The notes under the pieces were generated by a model. The model had not been told where the DNA came from, did not search any database, and saw only the letters and a program-made list of their open reading frames with translations. Positions 2,888-51,600 of a stretch of DNA of 64,000 nucleotides are shown in pieces. A program made the position numbers and the translations under genes. Source of the DNA: Flavobacteriales bacterium. GTDB taxonomy: Bacteria; Bacteroidota; Bacteroidia; Flavobacteriales_F; PHOS-HE28. Every line of letters starts with the position of its first letter. Within the stretch, counting starts at the first letter, position 1. The DNA lies in contig JAGNSU010000010.1 of the NCBI GenBank assembly GCA_017987895.1, positions 2,761 through 66,760 of the forward strand. Reading direction: 5' to 3'.

Positions 2888-3037
2888 CGCGTTCGCGGGG
2901 ATCAGCGCCGAGAGCGAAGCTCGAGGAGATGGCCGAAGCGATCTCTCATTCGTGCGAAGGATCATGCCCGGCGGAAGATGATCCCGCACGGATCCAATAA
3001 GATCGCTTCGCGCCGAGGACGGACGCTCGCGAACGCG
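2888..3037. repeat. Imperfect inverted repeat between convergent genes
   Basis: Two pairs of complementary arms are nested around a centre near 2970: cgcgttcgcg (2888-2897) with cgcgaacgcg (3028-3037), and cgaagcgatct (2934-2944) with agatcgcttcg (3000-3010). The structure starts right after the stop of the 1334 gene and lies upstream of the stop of the minus-strand gene at 3081. It could act as a bidirectional terminator or be a degenerate palindromic element. No coding content is seen. Confidence 0.6.
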
Positions 3038-3080
3038 GGTGGGAGTTGATACCGACGAACAACGATGCACGGTGGACTGC

Positions 3081-4415
3081 TCAAGGCTTCGGGAATACCA
3101 CCTCGTATAGATCGTCCTCGCCTTCGCCCCCCGGGCGGAAGGAACTGAAGTAGCCTTTGCTGCCATCGCCCACCAACACCATGAACAGGTCGTCGTCCGG
3201 TGAGTTGATCGGCCAACCGAGGTTCTCCGGCTTGCTCCAACGGCCGTCCGTCCACGAGGAGCGGAACACATCGTAGCCGCCCATGCTGGTGTGGCCCTTG
3301 CTGCTGAAATAGATGGTGGCGCCATCGCCCTGCACGAAGATGCCGTCCTCGTCGAACCGGGAATTGACATCGGGGCCCAGGTTCTCGGCTTCCTTCCAGG
3401 CTTTCGCGTTGGCGTCCCACGCGCTGCGGTAGATGTCCTGTCCGCCCAGGCCGCCTTCGCGGTCGCTCACGAAATAGAGCCACTTGCCATCCTGGCTGTA
3501 GCACGCGCTGCTCTCGTGGAACTTGGTGTTGATGGCCGTGCCGAAGGGTTCCGGTGCGCCCCAATTCGAGCCCGCACGTTTGCTCTCGAGCAGGTCGCCG
3601 GTCACCTTCACGTCGCGGTAGATGATCATCCGGTCACCCTCGTGGTCCATGCCCACGGAGGCATCGTTCATTTCGGTGTTCACTGGTGGTGGTAGGGGTT
3701 GCGGTGCGCTCCAAGCCCCGTCCTTCAGCGTGCTGGTGTATACATCCTCGAAGTACTGGTTCGTGCTCTTGTTCACCTTGCCACCGGTGCTGTTCTCCCG
3801 TCGCGAAGTGAACCACATGGTCTGTCCATCGTGCGCGACCACCGCTCCGTAATCGCTGTACACACTGTTGACCCGCGGACCGAGGTTGGTGACCTGTGCG
3901 GAAGTGGGGTTGGCCATCAACGCCTTGCCATTGCGGCATTCGCTCAAGTGCTTCTCGGCTTGATTGTAGACAGGGTTCTCGTCCGGAAGACCCATGCTGC
4001 TGCGTTTGTGCGCTTCGAACTCCCAAATGGCCTCGTCCCATTTCGCGTTCAGCTGTAGTGCCATCCCAGCGAGGTAGTGCGCGCGCGGCACCTGTGGATC
4101 GAGCGTCACCGCCTTCTGGAAGTACGGCATGGCGAGATGCCGTTGCTGACCGTTCAGGTGGCACAAGCCCAGGCGCACGTTCAGGTCCGCGTTGTCCGGG
4201 TTCACCGCGTAGGCCTTCTCGTACAAGGCGATCGCCTGCCCGTAGTCCTTGCCACCGGCCTGCGCGAACTTTTCCGCGGCTTTCATGGCCGTGAGCGCTT
4301 CCTCCAGTTTCGCCTTGTCGGCGATATGCTCCTTGTCGAAGGGCACGTTGCCCTGTGCCCACGCCGGTGCGGTGGAGAGCGCGAGAGAGCAGAGCAGTGT
4401 GGCGCGAAGCATCAT
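3081..4415 (-). CDS. TPR and PD40 (WD40-like) repeat protein, OmpA-family relative without OmpA domain
   Basis: Starting at the ATG at 4415 (a second ATG follows at once) gives about 444 residues with a signal peptide (MMLRATLLCSLALSTAPAWAQ). TPR-like helices follow (EKAYAVNPDNADLNVRLGLC; PYFQKAVTLDPQVPRAHYLAG). The C-terminal half carries PD40 beta-propeller motifs (MWFTSRREN, LYFVSDREGGLGGQDIY, IYFSSKGHTSMGGYDVF, GYFSSFRPGGEGEDDLYEV). In Bacteroidota such TPR-PD40 proteins are often followed by an OmpA peptidoglycan-binding domain, as in PorE of the T9SS; that domain is absent here. A periplasmic or outer-membrane scaffold role is inferred. Confidence 0.85.
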   Translation of the reverse strand: MMLRATLLCSLALSTAPAWAQGNVPFDKEHIADKAKLEEALTAMKAAEKFAQAGGKDYGQAIALYEKAYAVNPDNADLNVRLGLCHLNGQQRHLAMPYFQKAVTLDPQVPRAHYLAGMALQLNAKWDEAIWEFEAHKRSSMGLPDENPVYNQAEKHLSECRNGKALMANPTSAQVTNLGPRVNSVYSDYGAVVAHDGQTMWFTSRRENSTGGKVNKSTNQYFEDVYTSTLKDGAWSAPQPLPPPVNTEMNDASVGMDHEGDRMIIYRDVKVTGDLLESKRAGSNWGAPEPFGTAINTKFHESSACYSQDGKWLYFVSDREGGLGGQDIYRSAWDANAKAWKEAENLGPDVNSRFDEDGIFVQGDGATIYFSSKGHTSMGGYDVFRSSWTDGRWSKPENLGWPINSPDDDLFMVLVGDGSKGYFSSFRPGGEGEDDLYEVVFPKP

Positions 4416-33378: not shown

Positions 33379-33481
33379 TGCCACATCCGATCATTCCACC
33401 ACGAAGCGGACACTGTCCGAGGTGCCGTTCGTTCTATCGAGTGCGTGGATCACATGTAGCCCCGCTGCAAGTCCGCTCGTC
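33379..33481. repeat. 103-bp perfect repeat, copy A (3' ends of T9SS paralogues)
   Basis: Bases 33379-33481 are identical to 35234-35336. The repeat covers the last 91 coding bases of the sorting domain plus 12 bases beyond the stop codon. Confidence 0.95.
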
Positions 33482-35016
33482 TGGATCTGGGTGAGGCCGG
33501 TCTGAACACGATCGCGCCATACGATCCGTCCTCGGGCGTCTAGGATCGTCACTTCCGCTGCGGCAATGGTGCGAAGGTTCACGGGATAACCTGCTACCAG
33601 CAGCGACGGGAAGATCTCCAGTATCGGTTGGGCATGCGAGTTGTTCTCTTCCAAACCGACCAGCGTGCAGAAGTCGAAGAATGGATCGAATGCTTCCGGT
33701 TCTGCGTGCGTGGAAGTATCTGAAACGAGGATGTCGACCGGCTGGACAACGGCGGTCGTTCCAAGGCTCAGGAAAGCCACGGGCACCAACGTGTCGGCAA
33801 GGGCATAACTCGTATCCGCCACCCATGCGCATTCCGTCGTATTCCAAGGAACGTGGCCAACAGTGGGGGTATACCAAGTGTAGTTGAAGAGTTCGTCGCG
33901 TTTCCTGAAATTCCCGCTGATCAGCAGATCATTGCTATTGGAGTTCAAACGTTCGTCTTCAAGTGAGTATTCATTGCCACCAGCGCTCCAGACAGGGAAT
34001 TCCCTCGTTCCCCGCCCGAGGTGAGTGCCGTCCGGGGCAAAATACTCCCGGCCGCGAATACCGAACTGAAGAACGCCATTCCCAAGTTCGCGTCCCGGTC
34101 GCCCGATCGACGTGCTGTTGAAACTCTGGCCATAGAGCCGGTACCAATCCAACTGGCCTACTGGATCGAACCGGGTCATGAAGCCGAAGGATATAGGACC
34201 GACGACATAGTCCTGGGTCCCGCCCACATATACGGCGCCGGTATTCGTCACCAGGGAAGTCGCCTCGCTGTATTCCCATTCCACATTGGTCATCTGCACG
34301 GTGGTTCCCCATGTGAAGCTCCCGAACTCGTCGATCCGGGTAACAGCGATCATACCCTCATACCCATAGCCTGTGTGGCTGACTATGGTCAGGCTGTTGT
34401 CAAGTGAAGGGAGGAGTTCATGCCGCATATCCCAGGTAATTTGGAAAGGGGACTGGGTCCTGCTCCATTGAACCTGCCCGTTCGCGGCCAGCCGGGTGAT
34501 CAAGTTGGTACTACCGGATTGATCGCCCACAAGTGCGAAAGTGAATTCACCGTTCGCGTGCGCCACTAATCTGGGCTGGACCCCGATATGCTCGAGCCCG
34601 GCGCTCGTGCGATAGTGTTTCGACCAAGCGATGTTCCCGTTCCCGGCGATACGCGTTAATACCGCATGGTGATCCTCGGGTCCGGTTCCGGTGGTGTAGA
34701 CCTTCTGAACAAGGAGTGCTCCACCATCCTGGGTCGCGACCATCTCATACAATGCCCAGGCGGTGTCGTTCACACCGATGGGATAAGACTTCGCCCACAG
34801 CGGATCACCGGCGGCATCAAGCTTCATCAACTGGCGTATCGGGTTCCCCAGGAGAAGTGCAATGAACCCATTGTCACTGGATTCCACGATCTTCTGGAAT
34901 CCAAGAAAACTTGTTCGCTCCGGATATGTTGAACGCACGTAATGAGGGCTCTGGGCGTGGCCCACTAAAGAGGGCAATAGCAGACTTGCGGTAAATGCAT
35001 GTTCAAGTGGTTTCAT
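33391..35016 (-). CDS. T9SS cargo protein, second of three tandem paralogues
   Basis: This 541-residue protein has signal peptide MKPLEHAFTASLLLPSLVGHAQ. The propeller-like repeats are of the same type (LMKLDAAGDPLWAKSYP; TQDGGALLVQKV; LITRLAANGQVQWSRTQ). The T9SS type A domain starts FPSLLVAGYPVNLRTIAAAEVTILDARGRIVWRDRV and its last 91 coding bases are identical to those of the next paralogue (35246). The body is clearly more diverged than the C-terminus, suggesting module exchange or gene conversion. Confidence 0.88.
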   Translation of the reverse strand: MKPLEHAFTASLLLPSLVGHAQSPHYVRSTYPERTSFLGFQKIVESSDNGFIALLLGNPIRQLMKLDAAGDPLWAKSYPIGVNDTAWALYEMVATQDGGALLVQKVYTTGTGPEDHHAVLTRIAGNGNIAWSKHYRTSAGLEHIGVQPRLVAHANGEFTFALVGDQSGSTNLITRLAANGQVQWSRTQSPFQITWDMRHELLPSLDNSLTIVSHTGYGYEGMIAVTRIDEFGSFTWGTTVQMTNVEWEYSEATSLVTNTGAVYVGGTQDYVVGPISFGFMTRFDPVGQLDWYRLYGQSFNSTSIGRPGRELGNGVLQFGIRGREYFAPDGTHLGRGTREFPVWSAGGNEYSLEDERLNSNSNDLLISGNFRKRDELFNYTWYTPTVGHVPWNTTECAWVADTSYALADTLVPVAFLSLGTTAVVQPVDILVSDTSTHAEPEAFDPFFDFCTLVGLEENNSHAQPILEIFPSLLVAGYPVNLRTIAAAEVTILDARGRIVWRDRVQTGLTQIQTSGLAAGLHVIHALDRTNGTSDSVRFVVE

Positions 35017-35233: not shown

Positions 35234-35336
35234 TGCCACATCCGATCATTCCACCACGAAGCGGACACTGTCCGAGGTGCCGTTCGTTCTATCGAGTGCG
35301 TGGATCACATGTAGCCCCGCTGCAAGTCCGCTCGTC
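35234..35336. repeat. 103-bp perfect repeat, copy B (3' ends of T9SS paralogues)
   Basis: Identical to 33379-33481, with the same 12-base offset from the stop codon. Identity breaks at one base and the following ~70 bases remain similar but not identical. Confidence 0.95.
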
Positions 35337-36868
35337 GGGATCTGGGTGAGGCCGGCCTGAACACGATCACGCCAGACGATCCTCCCTCGCGCGTCCCGCA
35401 CGATCACTTCCGCTGCGTCGGTGGTGCGGAGGTTCACAGGATCGCCTGCGGATACCAAAGAAGGGAAGACTTCGATCGCAGGTTGATCCACCACAATGTT
35501 CTCTTCAACACCCACAAGAGCGCAGAAGTCGAAGAAGGCGAGGTTGGAAGGGACGATGATGAAGGATGTATCCGCAGAGAAAACCGTTTCCGGCACGGGC
35601 GCGTCCATGGTCTGAAGGCTGATGAAAGCCAGCGGCACGAGGGTATCCGTCACAGCGTAAGAGGTGTCCATCACCCAGCCGCAGGTTCCTGCCAAGTCTA
35701 GGGGGATTCGCTCGATCGTAGGCGTGCTCCAAGAGTAGCCGAACAATTGATCCGTACGCTTGTAATTGCCCGACACGAGGAAGCCGATCGAGGAGAGCCC
35801 AGTGTATCCGGCTGACCGAACGAACTGGTCGTTCCCCACATCGGTGCTCGGAAAACTAGTGCCCGCGTGGCCCAAGTATGTTCCGCCTGAGGTGAAGTAT
35901 TCCCTTCCCCGCGAACCGAACATAAGATCACCGTTGGTGAGTTCTGTCAAGGTGAACGAGGGTGACGGTGCGAAGGATGTATCGTAGAGCTTGTACCAGG
36001 CGAGGTCGCCGTTGGGTTCGAAGCGGATAAGAAGATCGCGATCGGTTTGCCCGATCTCCTGCTCACCTATCAAATAGACCGCCCCGGATGCGATCACCCC
36101 GGCGTTCATATTGGAATACATGGCGCTCGCGTTCGTCATCTTGATCCGTTTGCCCCAAAGCATGCTACCGCTTTGATCGAAGCGCATGGCCACAATGCCG
36201 TCCCCGGAAGGAAAGTCCGAGAGATAAACGAGCAACACACCGTTGTCCGGGCCTGGGAGAAGGTCCGCTTCGCTGTCCATGACATTGCTATCGGGGTATG
36301 TGGACCAAATAACGTTGCCCAGATCGTCGATACGGACAAGGACATTGTGGTAGGTCAGGAAGCCATGCAGCAGAATGGTGTGCTCCCCGTTCGGATGGGT
36401 TACAATGGAAGCATGCGGGAACGCGCTCACAAACATCGGCACCGGCGCGTTGTATTTGCGCCGCCACATCACCTGACCTGCGGCATCCAAGCGTGTGGCG
36501 GTCACCTCGAAGGTCTGGTAGTTCGGCGCTGTCGATATGTCGAGGTACTCATCATGCAGAACGATGGCGCCACCATCAGCGGTCGCTGTTAGCGCTCCGG
36601 CACGCCAAGTGTCGTCCGTACTGGAGGAAGGGTAAGCGTTGGCCCAGACGAACTCGCCGTTCTGGTCAAGCTTCACCAGATAGTTCGCGGTGTCCAGATT
36701 GAGAGCGGCGAGCACACTACCATCGCTGGTTTCCACCGCGTTGGCGAAAGCGGCGTTCGGCTCCGTATGCTCGAACAGTGTCGAGCGCTGGAAGTAGCCA
36801 GGCTGGGCCAGCAAGATGGCCGGGATGAAAGGAGCGAGGAGGGCGAGGGAACGGGTAAGGATCTTCAT
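35246..36868 (-). CDS. T9SS cargo protein, third of three tandem paralogues
   Basis: This 540-residue protein has signal peptide MKILTRSLALLAPFIPAILLAQ. Its mature N-terminus PGYFQRSTLFEHTEPNAAFANAVETSDGSVLAALNLDTANYLVKLDQNGEFVW closely matches the first paralogue (31708), while its sorting-domain DNA matches the second (33391). Propeller motifs include TADGGAIVLHD, THPNGEHTILLHGF and LLIRFEPNGDLAWYKLYD. The C-terminus is T9SS type A (FPSLVSAGDPVNLRTTDAAEVIVRDARGR). Likely a cell-surface or secreted adhesin-like protein of unknown ligand. Confidence 0.88.
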   Translation of the reverse strand: MKILTRSLALLAPFIPAILLAQPGYFQRSTLFEHTEPNAAFANAVETSDGSVLAALNLDTANYLVKLDQNGEFVWANAYPSSSTDDTWRAGALTATADGGAIVLHDEYLDISTAPNYQTFEVTATRLDAAGQVMWRRKYNAPVPMFVSAFPHASIVTHPNGEHTILLHGFLTYHNVLVRIDDLGNVIWSTYPDSNVMDSEADLLPGPDNGVLLVYLSDFPSGDGIVAMRFDQSGSMLWGKRIKMTNASAMYSNMNAGVIASGAVYLIGEQEIGQTDRDLLIRFEPNGDLAWYKLYDTSFAPSPSFTLTELTNGDLMFGSRGREYFTSGGTYLGHAGTSFPSTDVGNDQFVRSAGYTGLSSIGFLVSGNYKRTDQLFGYSWSTPTIERIPLDLAGTCGWVMDTSYAVTDTLVPLAFISLQTMDAPVPETVFSADTSFIIVPSNLAFFDFCALVGVEENIVVDQPAIEVFPSLVSAGDPVNLRTTDAAEVIVRDARGRIVWRDRVQAGLTQIPTSGLAAGLHVIHALDRTNGTSDSVRFVVE

Positions 36869-38879: not shown

Positions 38880-38883
38880 TGAT

Positions 38884-39042
38884 ATCAACTCCCCTCCTTT
38901 CCGGCGGAACGCTCCGCCGGACCTAGCAAGGAGGGGATAGGGGGTGGTTTCATTTCAGTTTCCAAGAACGCGATGCGGTAACCACCCCAACCCCTCCTTG
39001 CGCACAGCGATCGAGAGATCGATCGCCAGGAGGGGAGCTGAT
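38884..39042. repeat. Nested palindromic element, copy 1 (upstream of DUF559 gene)
   Basis: A 159-bp element whose ends are inverted repeats (atcaactcccctcct at 38884; the complement of atcagctcccctcct ending at 39042). The left arm contains ccggcgga-acgc-tccgccgg inside cccctcctt...aaggagggg. The right arm contains gcgatcga-gaga-tcgatcgc inside acccctcctt...aggaggggagct. The centre (ggggtggttt ... aaccacccc) is also complementary. Starts 4 bases after the stop of the beta-CASP gene. Confidence 0.9.
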
Positions 39043-39060
39043 CCGCATTTGTTTTCAGGA

Positions 39061-39100
39061 ATGCGGTGCGCAGAGATCGATCGACTGGAGGGGACCTGAT
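39061..39100. repeat. Truncated copy of the palindromic element (right arm only)
   Basis: The stretch gagatcgatcgactggagg-type sequence ending gggacctgat at 39100 matches the right arm of copies 1 and 2 with a few changes. It ends 2 bases before the GTG start of the DUF559 gene, so it occupies that gene's leader. Confidence 0.7.
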
Positions 39101-39102
39101 CG

Positions 39103-39486
39103 GTGTACTTTCGGAATGTGGCTCCTTTCAACAACAGGCCAGAGCTCAAACCGATCCGGAAGCAACTCAGGAACGAGGGCACCGCAGCCGAGGCCACGTT
39201 GTGGACGTGCTTGAAGAACCGGCAGCTGGACGGGAGGAAGTTCCGCCGCCAGCACAGCTTTGGATCGCATGTGGTGGTGGATTTCTATTGCCCGGACGAG
39301 CGCTTGGCGGTGGAGTTGGATGGAAAGGAACATGCTGATCCTATCGGTTCGGTCAATGATGAGGTACGTGACGACTACCTCCGGGCGAATCGGATACGCC
39401 TTCTTCGGTTCGAGAATAGGGAGGTCTTCGAAGATGTAGAGCGCGTTCTGGAGGAGATCAGAATGGCGATCCACGATGCCGGTTAA
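39103..39486 (+). CDS. DUF559 domain-containing (Vsr-like) endonuclease
   Basis: From a GTG at 39103 the protein has 127 residues and consists of a single DUF559 domain: AEATLWTCLKNRQLDGRKFRRQHSFGSHVVVDFYCPDERLAVELDGKEHAD, then DDYLRANRIRLLRFENREVFEDVERVLEEI. The PD-(D/E)xK-type residues (E in AEATLW, D in VVDFYC, E in VELDG) look intact. The family is related to very-short-patch-repair nucleases; its cellular role is not established. The gene sits alone in an intergenic space, enclosed by two full copies and one partial copy of a palindromic element, which suggests a mobile cassette. Confidence 0.9.
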   Translation: MYFRNVAPFNNRPELKPIRKQLRNEGTAAEATLWTCLKNRQLDGRKFRRQHSFGSHVVVDFYCPDERLAVELDGKEHADPIGSVNDEVRDDYLRANRIRLLRFENREVFEDVERVLEEIRMAIHDAG

Positions 39487-39512
39487 GGCGGTCAATGAAG
39501 GTCGGGGAACAG

Positions 39513-39669
39513 ATCAACTCCCCTCCTGTCCGGCGGAACGCTCCGCCGGACCTAGCAAGGAGGGGTAGGGGTGGTTTCAATTCAGTTTTCAGAACGCGGT
39601 TCGGAACCCACCCCCAACCCCTCCCTGTGCACAGCGATCGAGTGCTCGATCGCCAGGAGGGGAGTTGAT
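39513..39669. repeat. Nested palindromic element, copy 2 (downstream of DUF559 gene)
   Basis: A 157-bp element in the same orientation as copy 1; the first ~53 bases differ by one substitution. In the right arm the inner palindrome reads gcgatcgag-tg-ctcgatcgc, so sequence change at the loop keeps self-complementarity. It starts 26 bases after the DUF559 stop. Confidence 0.9.
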
Positions 39670-48648: not shown

Positions 48649-51600
48649 TCAACGCTGGATCACCAGGCGCTGGTTCCACTGTTCAGAACCGGCCGTGAGC
48701 GTGACCACATAGACACCGCTGGCCAGGCCGCTCAGATCGAGCGTACTGTTGAGCGTTCCGCTCACCGGGAGCTGCTCGGCATGCACGCGCTTGCCGAAGA
48801 GATCGGTCACGTCCAAGCTCACCAGTTCGATGTCCGTCTTCAGCACATCCATGCGCACCGTCACGAGACCATCGCGGTTCGGGTTGGGGTAGAGTTGCAT
48901 GGAGATCTGTTCCATTTCCTCCACCTCAATGGTGCGCGCTTGGGCCACAGGAGGCGCTACGATCGCCACGGTGCAGGATGCGCCGTACGGGCAGTAGGTG
49001 CTGCCGCCGTCGTAGCTCACGCGTACCACCACGTTATAGGTGTTGCCGGCCACCAAGGGCAGCGTGTTCCAGTTAAGCGTCAAGTTCGGACCGGTCACCG
49101 CGATGGTACGGGTGTAACCGCCGCCTACGCGATCGAACTTGAACTGGTATTTGTTCACTCCGGGCACGGTGATGGCGCTGATGTACTGGCTGCCACCGAA
49201 CGTGCGGGTCACACCACAGCTGTAGTTCGGGTTGTTGATGTCGTCCACAAGCTTGGTGGTCGCGCAAGGCGGCGGACCCACACGCATGCGGCATACACCA
49301 CCCCATGCTGCGTAGGTGCCGGCCACGCGGCTGCGTACCCGTACGTTCAACACCACGTTCTGCGGAACCGGCAGGGTGACGATATCGGCGAGCTTCAGCG
49401 TAGCGCACTTGGTAGCCCCGTTCGGTCCACCACCCGTGTTGTGGGCGAGGAAGATCATGCGGGTGTAACCACCGTGCGGGTTGAAAATGTGCCACTGGTA
49501 ACCGCTGGTGCTGTTGGTCAGGTTGTACTGCGCGCTCACTGCGGGGTTCACCACTGCGGTCAACGTACCGTTCGGCGGCAGGGACATCTGATCGCAGCTG
49601 CCTGCGGTCAAAGCATCGGTGCCCAAGGGGACACAGAAGCTCGGTGCCGCCTTGCTCAGCGAGGTGAATGTGTTGCCGTTGTTCGCGTTATCGATGATGC
49701 GGTTGGTATTGATATCCCGCAGCACGAACCCACCGGGGTTGATGCCATCGCCCATGCTGTCGAACACTTGCAGATCGTAGCAGCCGTTCGGCAGGCAGCA
49801 GGTAGCGGTGATCAAGCTGTTGTTGGCATAGCCACCACCACTGCAAACCACCGTGCTGGTACCACCATTCACGATGTTCCAGGTGGTCTGTGCGGCGTTC
49901 GCATCGGTGTTCAAGGTCAAGATCACCTCGTTCAGAGCGCAACCACCCACTGGCGTTCCAGCGCAGGTGCAGTTCGGCTGGTACAGATCATTGATCGTGT
50001 TGGGGTTGCCATCATTGCAGGCCGTGCCAGGAAGCGCGGTGCCGCCAGGTACGCCCAGGCAGTCGATCGTTTGACCGGCGCAGGTGCAGTTCGGCTGATA
50101 CACATCGTTGCCTGTGGTCGCGTTGCCGTCGTCGCAAGCGGTGCCTGGCAGAGCGGGTCCACCCGGTACGCCCAGGCAGTCGATCAACTGGCCTTCGCAT
50201 ACGCAACCGGCGCTCCAGGTGTCGTTACCCGTGGTAGCCAGGCCATCGTCGCAGGGCGTGCCTGGCAGCTCGGTGCCGCCTGGGGTGCCTTCGCAGTCGA
50301 GGGTTTGACCAGCGCAGGTACAGTTCGGCTGATAGATATCGTTACCCGTGGTAGCGTTCCCGTCATCGCAAGGCGAGCCGATCACTGCGGTTCCACCCGG
50401 TACGCCCAGGCAGTCGAAGGGTTGACCAGCGCAAGTGCAGTTCGGCTGGTACACATCGTTACCCGTGTTCGCGTCCAGGTCATCGCAAGGCGTGCCTGGC
50501 AGAGCGGGTCCACCCGGTACACCAAGGCAGTCCGTCAACAGACCCTGGCATATGCAGCTACCATTGATCACGTCGCCGCTCGTGTTCGGGTTCAAGTCAT
50601 CGCAAGGATCACCTTGCTCACCGAATAGGTTCGGGCAATCATCGTTCGCATCGCAGATGCCATCGAGGTCGGAATCCTGGAAGGTGTGGCTCACGTTGCC
50701 GTTACCCGTGCACTGATCAAGCGTGCAGGGATCGCCATCGTCCACCAAGGGGGTGGTTACGCTGGTGTTCCCCTGCGCGGAGCAGCCGTTCGCGGAAACC
50801 GTTACCTGGTAGTTGGTGACCGTGTTCGCTGTCATGATCGTGGCCATCGGGTTGGCGATGGTCGCGTCGTTCAGGGTGCCAGGGTTCGTCCAGCTGTAGG
50901 TGTAAGGGGCCACACCACCGGTCACGTTGATCGTGTAGTCTTCGGCCTGACCATAGCTGTATGCGCCGCACGGATCCGTCGGCGAAGTGAAGTAGTTCTT
51001 CACCACCCGCATGCGCGTATTGCCGTTGAACGCCCCGGCCGGAACCGTTACGTTGTTTGTGGCGGTAAGTATGCACGCCGTGTTGGTGATGGAGCCGATC
51101 GCTTGCTGTGATTCGAACGTACCGTTCTGATCCCAGTCGAAGAAGGCCGTGAAGTAGGTAGTGAAACTTCCGTCCGTGTTGCCCGAGGCTGTGAACGGAT
51201 AGACACCACCGGCGACCACGTTACCGACCACCCCAGTGAAATCCTGAAGTGCGTTCGTAGGAGGAGCGTTCACCGGACAGGGGCTCGAGTTGTTGATGCC
51301 TGCGAACGTCACGTTCGATATCGGCTCGATGCTGGTGGCGAAGCTGATCGTGGTGCAATAGCCCGAAGGCGCGGGAGTGGTCACCAGAAGCTGTGAGCTG
51401 CCACCTGGGCAGATCGTGCCGGGCGTAGCCGTCGTGCTCACGATCACTGGGTTGGCGTTCACTACTACAACCGTGTTGGAAGGTGCGGAAGGGCAACCAG
51501 CGGCCGTAGCGGTCAGCACATAGGTGCCGGCCATACCTGCCGTAGCGCTCGCGGAAACCTGCGGGTTCTGCGTGCCGTCCGTATAGGCCAACGGACCGGT

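Follow-up and report, generated by a model that had tools for sequence, protein, structure and literature searches.

A nuclease gene of the DUF559 family lies between palindromic repeats in the window, the 64,000-nt stretch of a Flavobacteriales contig that was analysed. This locus is probably a copy of a selfish mobile element, in which tagged hairpin units form inverted pairs around a Vsr-like DUF559 gene. The gene is associated with palindromes in this genome, in the phylum at large, and in other phyla as well. The element recurs, its sites occur in empty and filled form, one lineage with hairpin ends is found in non-homologous genes, and the nuclease is under purifying selection. We infer that the nuclease would drive the mobility and act on the palindrome. 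The features of the locus are as follows.

38884..39042, no strand: copy 1, the full 159-bp element, two inverted hairpin units with tags inward (42 own-genome BLAST matches)
38884..38949, plus strand: copy 1 left unit, ATCAACTCCCCTCCT, inner stem TCCGGCGGA/TCCGCCGGA, AAGGAGGGG, tag AGGGGGTGGTT
38980..39042, plus strand: copy 1 right unit, tag AACCACCCC, CCCCTCCTT, inner stem GCGATCGA/TCGATCGC, AGGAGGGGAGCTGAT
39066..39101, plus strand: right-arm fragment in the leader of the gene (39072-39101 90% identical to the right arm)
39103..39486, plus strand: DUF559 (Vsr-like) nuclease gene, likely true start GTG 39118 (PF04480, E=2.9e-28)
39513..39669, no strand: copy 2, the full 157-bp element
39513..39576, plus strand: copy 2 left unit, ATCAACTCCCCTCCTG, inner stem, AAGGAGGGG, TAGGGGTGGTT
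39605..39669, plus strand: copy 2 right unit, tag AACCCACCCCC, CCCCTCC, inner stem GCGATCGA/TCGATCGC, AGGAGGGGAGTTGAT
38980..39576, plus strand: putative gene-bearing unit, DUF559 framed by an inverted pair of hairpin units whose tags point outward (22-nt inverted repeat; same layout in relatives)
38883..39669, no strand: segment missing at the orthologous place in the congener G013

The DUF559 gene is enclosed by two copies of a nested-hairpin element. The left parts of the copies (53 bp) are 98% identical, with one substitution, and the right parts (58 bp) are 91% identical. Every arm is a hairpin within a hairpin, in which an outer stem, CCCCTCCT/AGGAGGGG, encloses a perfectly paired inner stem (8-10 bp) that is capped by a 4-nt loop. 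The arm pattern CCCCTCCT-N10..30-AGGAGGGG matches 3 times in the window versus 0 times in 100 shuffles. The loop of the right arm differs between the copies while the stem is intact (GCGATCGA-GAGA-TCGATCGC versus GCGATCGA-GTGC-TCGATCGC), and a 30-bp fragment of this arm stands in the leader of the gene. The initial annotation had reported the two enclosing copies, the single substitution in their first 53 bases or so, the nested arms, the changed loop in an intact palindrome, and the leader fragment, and all of these are present. Its element length of about 158 bp was an approximation, the exact values being 159 and 157 bp. It had also described the copies as direct, which is correct, but the gene is additionally bracketed by an inverted pair that consists of the right arm of copy 1 and the left arm of copy 2. 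This pair forms a terminal inverted repeat of 22 nt (38980-39001/39555-39576) with 95% complementarity. The bracketing of DUF559 by an inverted pair is the layout that recurs at other loci.

The window copy of the gene-bearing unit is intergenic. Its neighbours are a beta-CASP metallo-hydrolase gene upstream and a secreted M43 peptidase gene downstream, and no methyltransferase gene adjoins the DUF559 gene. The window holds no Rfam match at the gathering score, and the sub-threshold microRNA matches are spurious. Elsewhere in the window, at positions 49958-50532, a 117-bp unit is repeated in tandem about 4.9 times (72% matches). Two adjoining genes on the minus strand, 33391-35016 and 35246-36868, encode paralogous secreted-type proteins of 541 and 540 aa, whose C-terminal sorting regions are nearly alike.

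DUF559 is the sole domain of the product by profile match, and the gene carries no transposase domain of the DDE, HUH, serine, or tyrosine type. Among known defence proteins, PADLOC gave weak matches only. The gene was initially placed at 39103-39486; it is indeed a DUF559 gene, but alignment with paralogues makes GTG 39118 (MAPFNNRPEL...) a more likely start than GTG 39103. Across 72 homologues, residues E30, W34, Q50, D60, E71, D73, G74, and D86 never vary, and 71 of the homologues keep H77. The protein has a conserved acidic/His active site, and its nuclease domain is homologous to that of an EDxHD homing endonuclease. In a Foldseek search with the AlphaFold model (pLDDT 89), the best matches were 3HRL (E=3e-7, TM 0.90 by target) and the catalytic domain of I-Bth0305I (E=6e-4), with Vsr (1VSR) ranking lower at a probability of 0.89. 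Profile HMM searches likewise returned 3HRL (E=4.5e-37) and 3R3P (E=2e-6). The predicted fold is Vsr-like, as expected for the PD-(D/E)xK Vsr-like nuclease proposed at first, and is closest to 3HRL and the homing endonuclease I-Bth0305I. The dN/dS ratio is about 0.1 in most DUF559 pairs with measurable dS, with synonymous sites mostly saturated. This indicates that the nuclease has been kept functional and that the paralogues of the own genome are old, so that movement of the gene itself within this genome may not have been recent.

The element is dispersed in its own genome rather than confined to the window locus. BLAST with the element gave 42 matches on about 20 contigs of the assembly (about 21 with C107). 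Each of the four DUF559 genes in the genome is situated inside element copies or abuts them. On contig C146 (L032), the gene occupies the central spacer of one element, in the order left unit, gene, right unit, and the congener G244 (L266) has the same layout. In the window and on contigs C154 and C97, neighbouring copies form a BIME-like array, and DUF559 stands between their units. The 30 distinct units of this genome mostly follow one plan: a tag, CCCCTCC, an asymmetric stretch of 7-9 nt, a 7-10 bp inner stem closed by a 4-nt loop, and GGAGGGG. A few units have longer inner parts. The 30 units carry at least six unrelated inner stem sequences, all palindromic, and their mean MFE is -17.3 versus -9.8 for shuffled sequences, which is strong evidence of selection on structure. 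At two own-genome loci (L031 and L033), the DUF559 frame extends into a hairpin arm and stops inside it, so that the arm supplies the C-terminus. Four units of another tag type (TCACCCC...) occur in this genome (G000) on C140, C173, C210, and C237, and no DUF559 gene of the in-frame clade that would match these units was found there.

An empty counterpart of the locus exists in a congener. Of 45 congeneric genomes, most have the orthologous beta-CASP gene. In G013 (L256), the M43 gene comes next after this gene, at a distance of about 45 bp versus 851 bp in the window; the 786-bp segment 38883-39669 is absent, and the gene order is otherwise the same. The initial suggestion to look for an empty site thus yielded one. 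The flanks of this site are too diverged for a target-site duplication to be readable, as are the filled and empty leuS alleles described below. Ten other relatives have other genes downstream of the beta-CASP gene. Within the genomes compared, no excision or transposition event was seen. The same-type DUF559 genes of congeners G239, G252, and G244 are also embedded in the element, as are the four of the own genome (7/7). DUF559 of this type is found in three of the five genomes that bear the window-type element versus one of the 41 others (p=0.003). The remaining two element-bearing genomes, G007 (99% complete) and G241, yielded no DUF559 gene. These may be remnants after gene loss, or the element may move without DUF559, contrary to our model. 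The window-type hairpin units of G007 are located on C30, C36, C41, and C45 (L275-L278).

In genomes of the same genus and the same class, many DUF559 domains lie within long open frames. The leuS gene hosts DUF559 at two sites, one in the loop before IEVFTTRPDT and the other before the TMPGWAG motif. Other in-frame hosts are methylmalonyl-CoA mutase, methionine synthase (MetH), RecJ, RecG, HsdR, HsdM, a CoA-transferase-like protein, and a SpoIIE-like phosphatase. LeuRS was confirmed as a host by the family model TIGR00396, alone among the hosts; the other names are our assignments from recognised sequence motifs. The inserts open with a translated hairpin (e.g. LTPNPSPEERG) and close with another (e.g. 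SPSPRERGPGGE), and their DNA runs from CCTCACCCC and a hairpin to a hairpin and GGGGTGAGG. In one set, the first leuS site is empty in 27 alleles and filled in four. Further filled leuS alleles are L156, L159, L194, and L260-L263. The second leuS site, metH, and hsdR have each been filled more than once. The stretch from loop to motif in the leuS inserts is 480-597 bp, which leaves little space for a splicing domain beside DUF559. The mobility that had been considered possible at the outset is supported by these filled and empty leuS sites together with the empty site in G013. In G029, two SpoIIE-like phosphatase paralogues (L104 and L105) carry nearly identical DUF559 inserts.

In a tree of 107 DUF559 domains, which is based on few columns and has unsettled bootstrap values, most in-frame housekeeping inserts form one clade (98/89). 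In the genus of the window, one clade (100/99) spans units in leuS, mutB, and a restriction-modification gene, and the DNA of these units is 72-75% identical across non-homologous hosts. A single lineage has therefore entered unrelated genes. The four DUF559 genes of the own genome also form one clade (100/99).

Association with palindromes extends to the phylum, in which DUF559 was found in 84 of 198 sampled genomes. The best-matching locus was fetched from each of 60 genomes, a sample that is non-random for DUF559 subtype, and 58 loci (58 Bacteroidota genomes) were scored with 735 same-contig windows as controls. The best inverted match between flanks has a median of 14 at DUF559 loci versus 9 in controls (Mann-Whitney p about 1e-23), and exceeds the control p99 at 34 and the p95 at 41 of the 58 loci. 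Direct-repeat scores between the flanks are also raised. Flank similarity increases with protein similarity (Mantel 0/300), as is expected if ends and enzyme travel together. The test of other phyla was made on plasmid records, a genome-contig search having given four loci. Of 18 DUF559 loci from alphaproteobacterial, cyanobacterial, and Deinococcus plasmids, 13 score above the p99 of their own controls. On a Sphingomonas plasmid, the unit lies between two transhydrogenase subunit genes, and two related catabolic clusters of Deinococcus carry it at different positions. The palindrome pattern TCACCCCN{2,4}CCCYTCTCC is present in 15 of 19 relatives with DUF559 versus 3 of 20 without (Fisher p=9e-5), and the reversed control pattern has one site in all genomes together. 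All 15 pattern-bearing DUF559 genomes keep at least one site away from DUF559 genes, as judged by inspection of coordinates. G023, G027, G031, and G032 have DUF559 and lack this pattern; their palindromes are of other types. Both the flank test and the comparison of genomes with and without DUF559 link DUF559 genes of relatives to palindromes. Neither of the two outcomes that the initial annotation had named as counting against it, an element confined to this locus or no such link in relatives, was observed.

DUF559 genes of more distant bacteria also neighbour palindromic sequences. The E. coli gene ycjD, which lies between sapF and fabI, belongs to DUF559 (L286, match 3001-3309) and has CCCCTCGCCCCTCTGGGGAGAGGGTTAGGGTGAGGGG downstream. 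Pieces of this stretch have a median of four matching places per genome, and an old orphan repeat, for instance Box C, is a possible relative of it. The E. coli ycjD gene is present in about 3,364 of 5,426 genomes. Two strains without it have other genes after sapF, and so offer no simple empty site. The hairpins that flank DUF559 in rhizobia (L219 in Shinella; L220 and L222 in Sinorhizobium) look to us like RIME intergenic repeats. Strain-level empty sites were sought on plasmids of Sinorhizobium and Azospirillum, and none was obtained.

Several known systems share features with the element. In REPIN/RAYT systems (REPtrons), GTAG-tagged REPs are associated with a Y1 HUH transposase (PMC3116915, PMC3733652). 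The likeness to REP and RAYT pointed out in the initial annotation holds for the layout: tagged hairpin units in inverted doublets, arrays beside the enzyme gene, scattered solo pairs, and co-occurrence of enzyme and repeat. It does not hold for the enzyme, which here is a PD-(D/E)XK nuclease of Vsr-like fold (DUF559) and not a tyrosine HUH transposase. The tags also differ, being CTCACCCC/AACCACCCC-like here and GTAG/CGTC in REPtrons, and, unlike in REPIN/RAYT, many units are in frame within genes with the nuclease inside the pair. A RAYT origin of the palindromes was considered and rejected; Y1_Tnp genes exist, and none is near the element. The window unit resembles an insertion sequence or MITE in its terminal inverted repeats (22 nt), but the locus has no DDE, HUH, serine, or tyrosine transposase. 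The element works like a REPtron or an insertion sequence, and its classification as either fails on the enzyme.

EDxHD homing endonucleases such as I-Bth0305I (PDB 3R3P; PMC3943268) have a homologous catalytic domain, and their genes are likewise inserted in conserved genes. A DUF559 gene has been placed in the EDxHD homing family in passing (PMC9403480). No group I intron (by Rfam, in the window) and no intein was seen. Unlike in the EDxHD systems, DUF559 has no extra DNA-binding region, and the unit has hairpin ends, leaves solo repeats, and has many unrelated targets. Rickettsia palindromic elements (RPEs), which are about 150 bp long (reviewed in PMC10969869), are also tolerated as in-frame palindromes in unrelated protein genes, as are the copies in relatives here. 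Unlike RPEs, the palindromes here bracket a nuclease domain. We know of no nuclease gene of the DUF559 kind in RPEs. The 'endonuclease-like protein' NGO0050 (PDB 3HRL) belongs to the same domain family as the window protein, and its database title gives no role. Vsr acts in T:G repair together with a cytosine methyltransferase. The window DUF559 shares the fold of Vsr, but has no adjacent cytosine methyltransferase gene. VsrA of Caulobacter, which contains DUF559, is tied to cytosine methylation and is responsible for the DNA-damage response in a methylase mutant, so that a member of the DUF559 family can damage DNA in vivo (PMC12907096).

In the reading that we prefer, a mobile element of hairpin units and DUF559, the nuclease would recognise the hairpin ends or the target and make a nick or break, and repair would copy the unit into a new place. 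The structural kinship of DUF559 to a homing endonuclease counts for this reading. To our knowledge, Vsr-like nucleases have no strand-transfer activity, so host repair would have to do the joining. Recognition sites and element ends would both be provided by the palindromes. Pairs that lack the gene, each 159-bp copy for instance, would be non-autonomous derivatives of the element, as REPINs are of RAYT genes. When read in frame, the palindromes would form flexible linkers rich in Pro, Gly, and Ser, allowing the unit to sit inside protein genes. The re-filled leuS sites favour a homing-like cut at the target, and the many unrelated sites and abundant solo units favour a transposition-like cut at the element's own hairpins. 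Homing as such, in which DUF559 cuts preferred sites in conserved genes, the hairpin pairs are merely end sequences, and solo palindromes are debris, is possible but doubtful. It is a sub-case of the mobile-element reading, and our confidence in the two overlaps. The closest characterised relative of DUF559 is the homing endonuclease I-Bth0305I (3R3P), and the first leuS loop has been filled by DUF559s that lie apart on the tree (four changes of the site label, at least two forced by starred branches); the second leuS site, metH, and hsdR have been filled repeatedly too, which in this reading would be homing. However, such loops may simply tolerate inserts, solo units are numerous, and members of a single lineage occupy many non-homologous genes as well as intergenic places.

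It is unlikely that DUF559 genes are passengers inside pairs of palindromes that another enzyme, such as a Y1/RAYT transposase, spreads. Y1_Tnp genes do occur in the own genome and in most relatives, and G007 and G241 have the element without DUF559. However, the three weak Y1_Tnp matches of the own genome (C108, C77, and C218) are on contigs without the element, and G003 (73% complete), G021, G030, and G036 have DUF559 and palindromes with no Y1_Tnp match, so that a RAYT is not needed to account for the palindromes. One would not expect a passenger to turn up in several phyla together with palindromes of its own and under strong purifying selection. Still less probable is a housekeeping role, with DUF559 as a Vsr-type mismatch-repair or restriction-linked nuclease and the palindromes as terminators or mRNA-stability hairpins. 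Intergenic GC hairpins are common, and the link of VsrA to cytosine methylation and the DNA-damage response would fit such a role (PMC12907096). It would, however, leave unexplained the in-frame units of hairpin, DUF559, and hairpin in leuS, mutB, metH, and recG, the filled and empty polymorphism, the outward tags, and the matched flank repeats well above same-contig controls, and the window gene has no adjoining methyltransferase gene. Self-alignment of GC-rich, low-complexity DNA by chance can be practically dismissed. The motif CCCCTCC is compositionally simple, but same-contig controls, the reversed pattern with its single site, and dinucleotide shuffles rule out such an origin, and the inner stems vary in sequence yet remain paired.

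A broader proposal is that the element represents an undescribed, phylum-spanning class of transposable elements, whose only enzyme is a Vsr-like nuclease of about 125 residues that acts on its own tagged hairpins, which can reside in frame inside essential genes, and from which several of the 'orphan' palindromic repeat families in bacteria have arisen. We hold this tentatively, at slightly less than even confidence. Our search of the open literature found no description of DUF559 joined with palindromic repeats or with in-frame insertion; since subscription papers were outside this search, 'undescribed' is provisional. Many bacterial families of palindromic repeats have no known mobility enzyme, the CGTC REPs among them (PMC3733652), and DUF559 is a concrete and testable candidate. 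If the proposal is true, a non-HUH enzyme would be added to the REP world. The low-complexity Pro/Gly/Ser inserts and DUF559 domains in leuS, metH, mutB, recG, recJ, and hsdR would be explained, and a Pfam family still named for its 'unknown function', which includes YcjD of E. coli, would gain a role.
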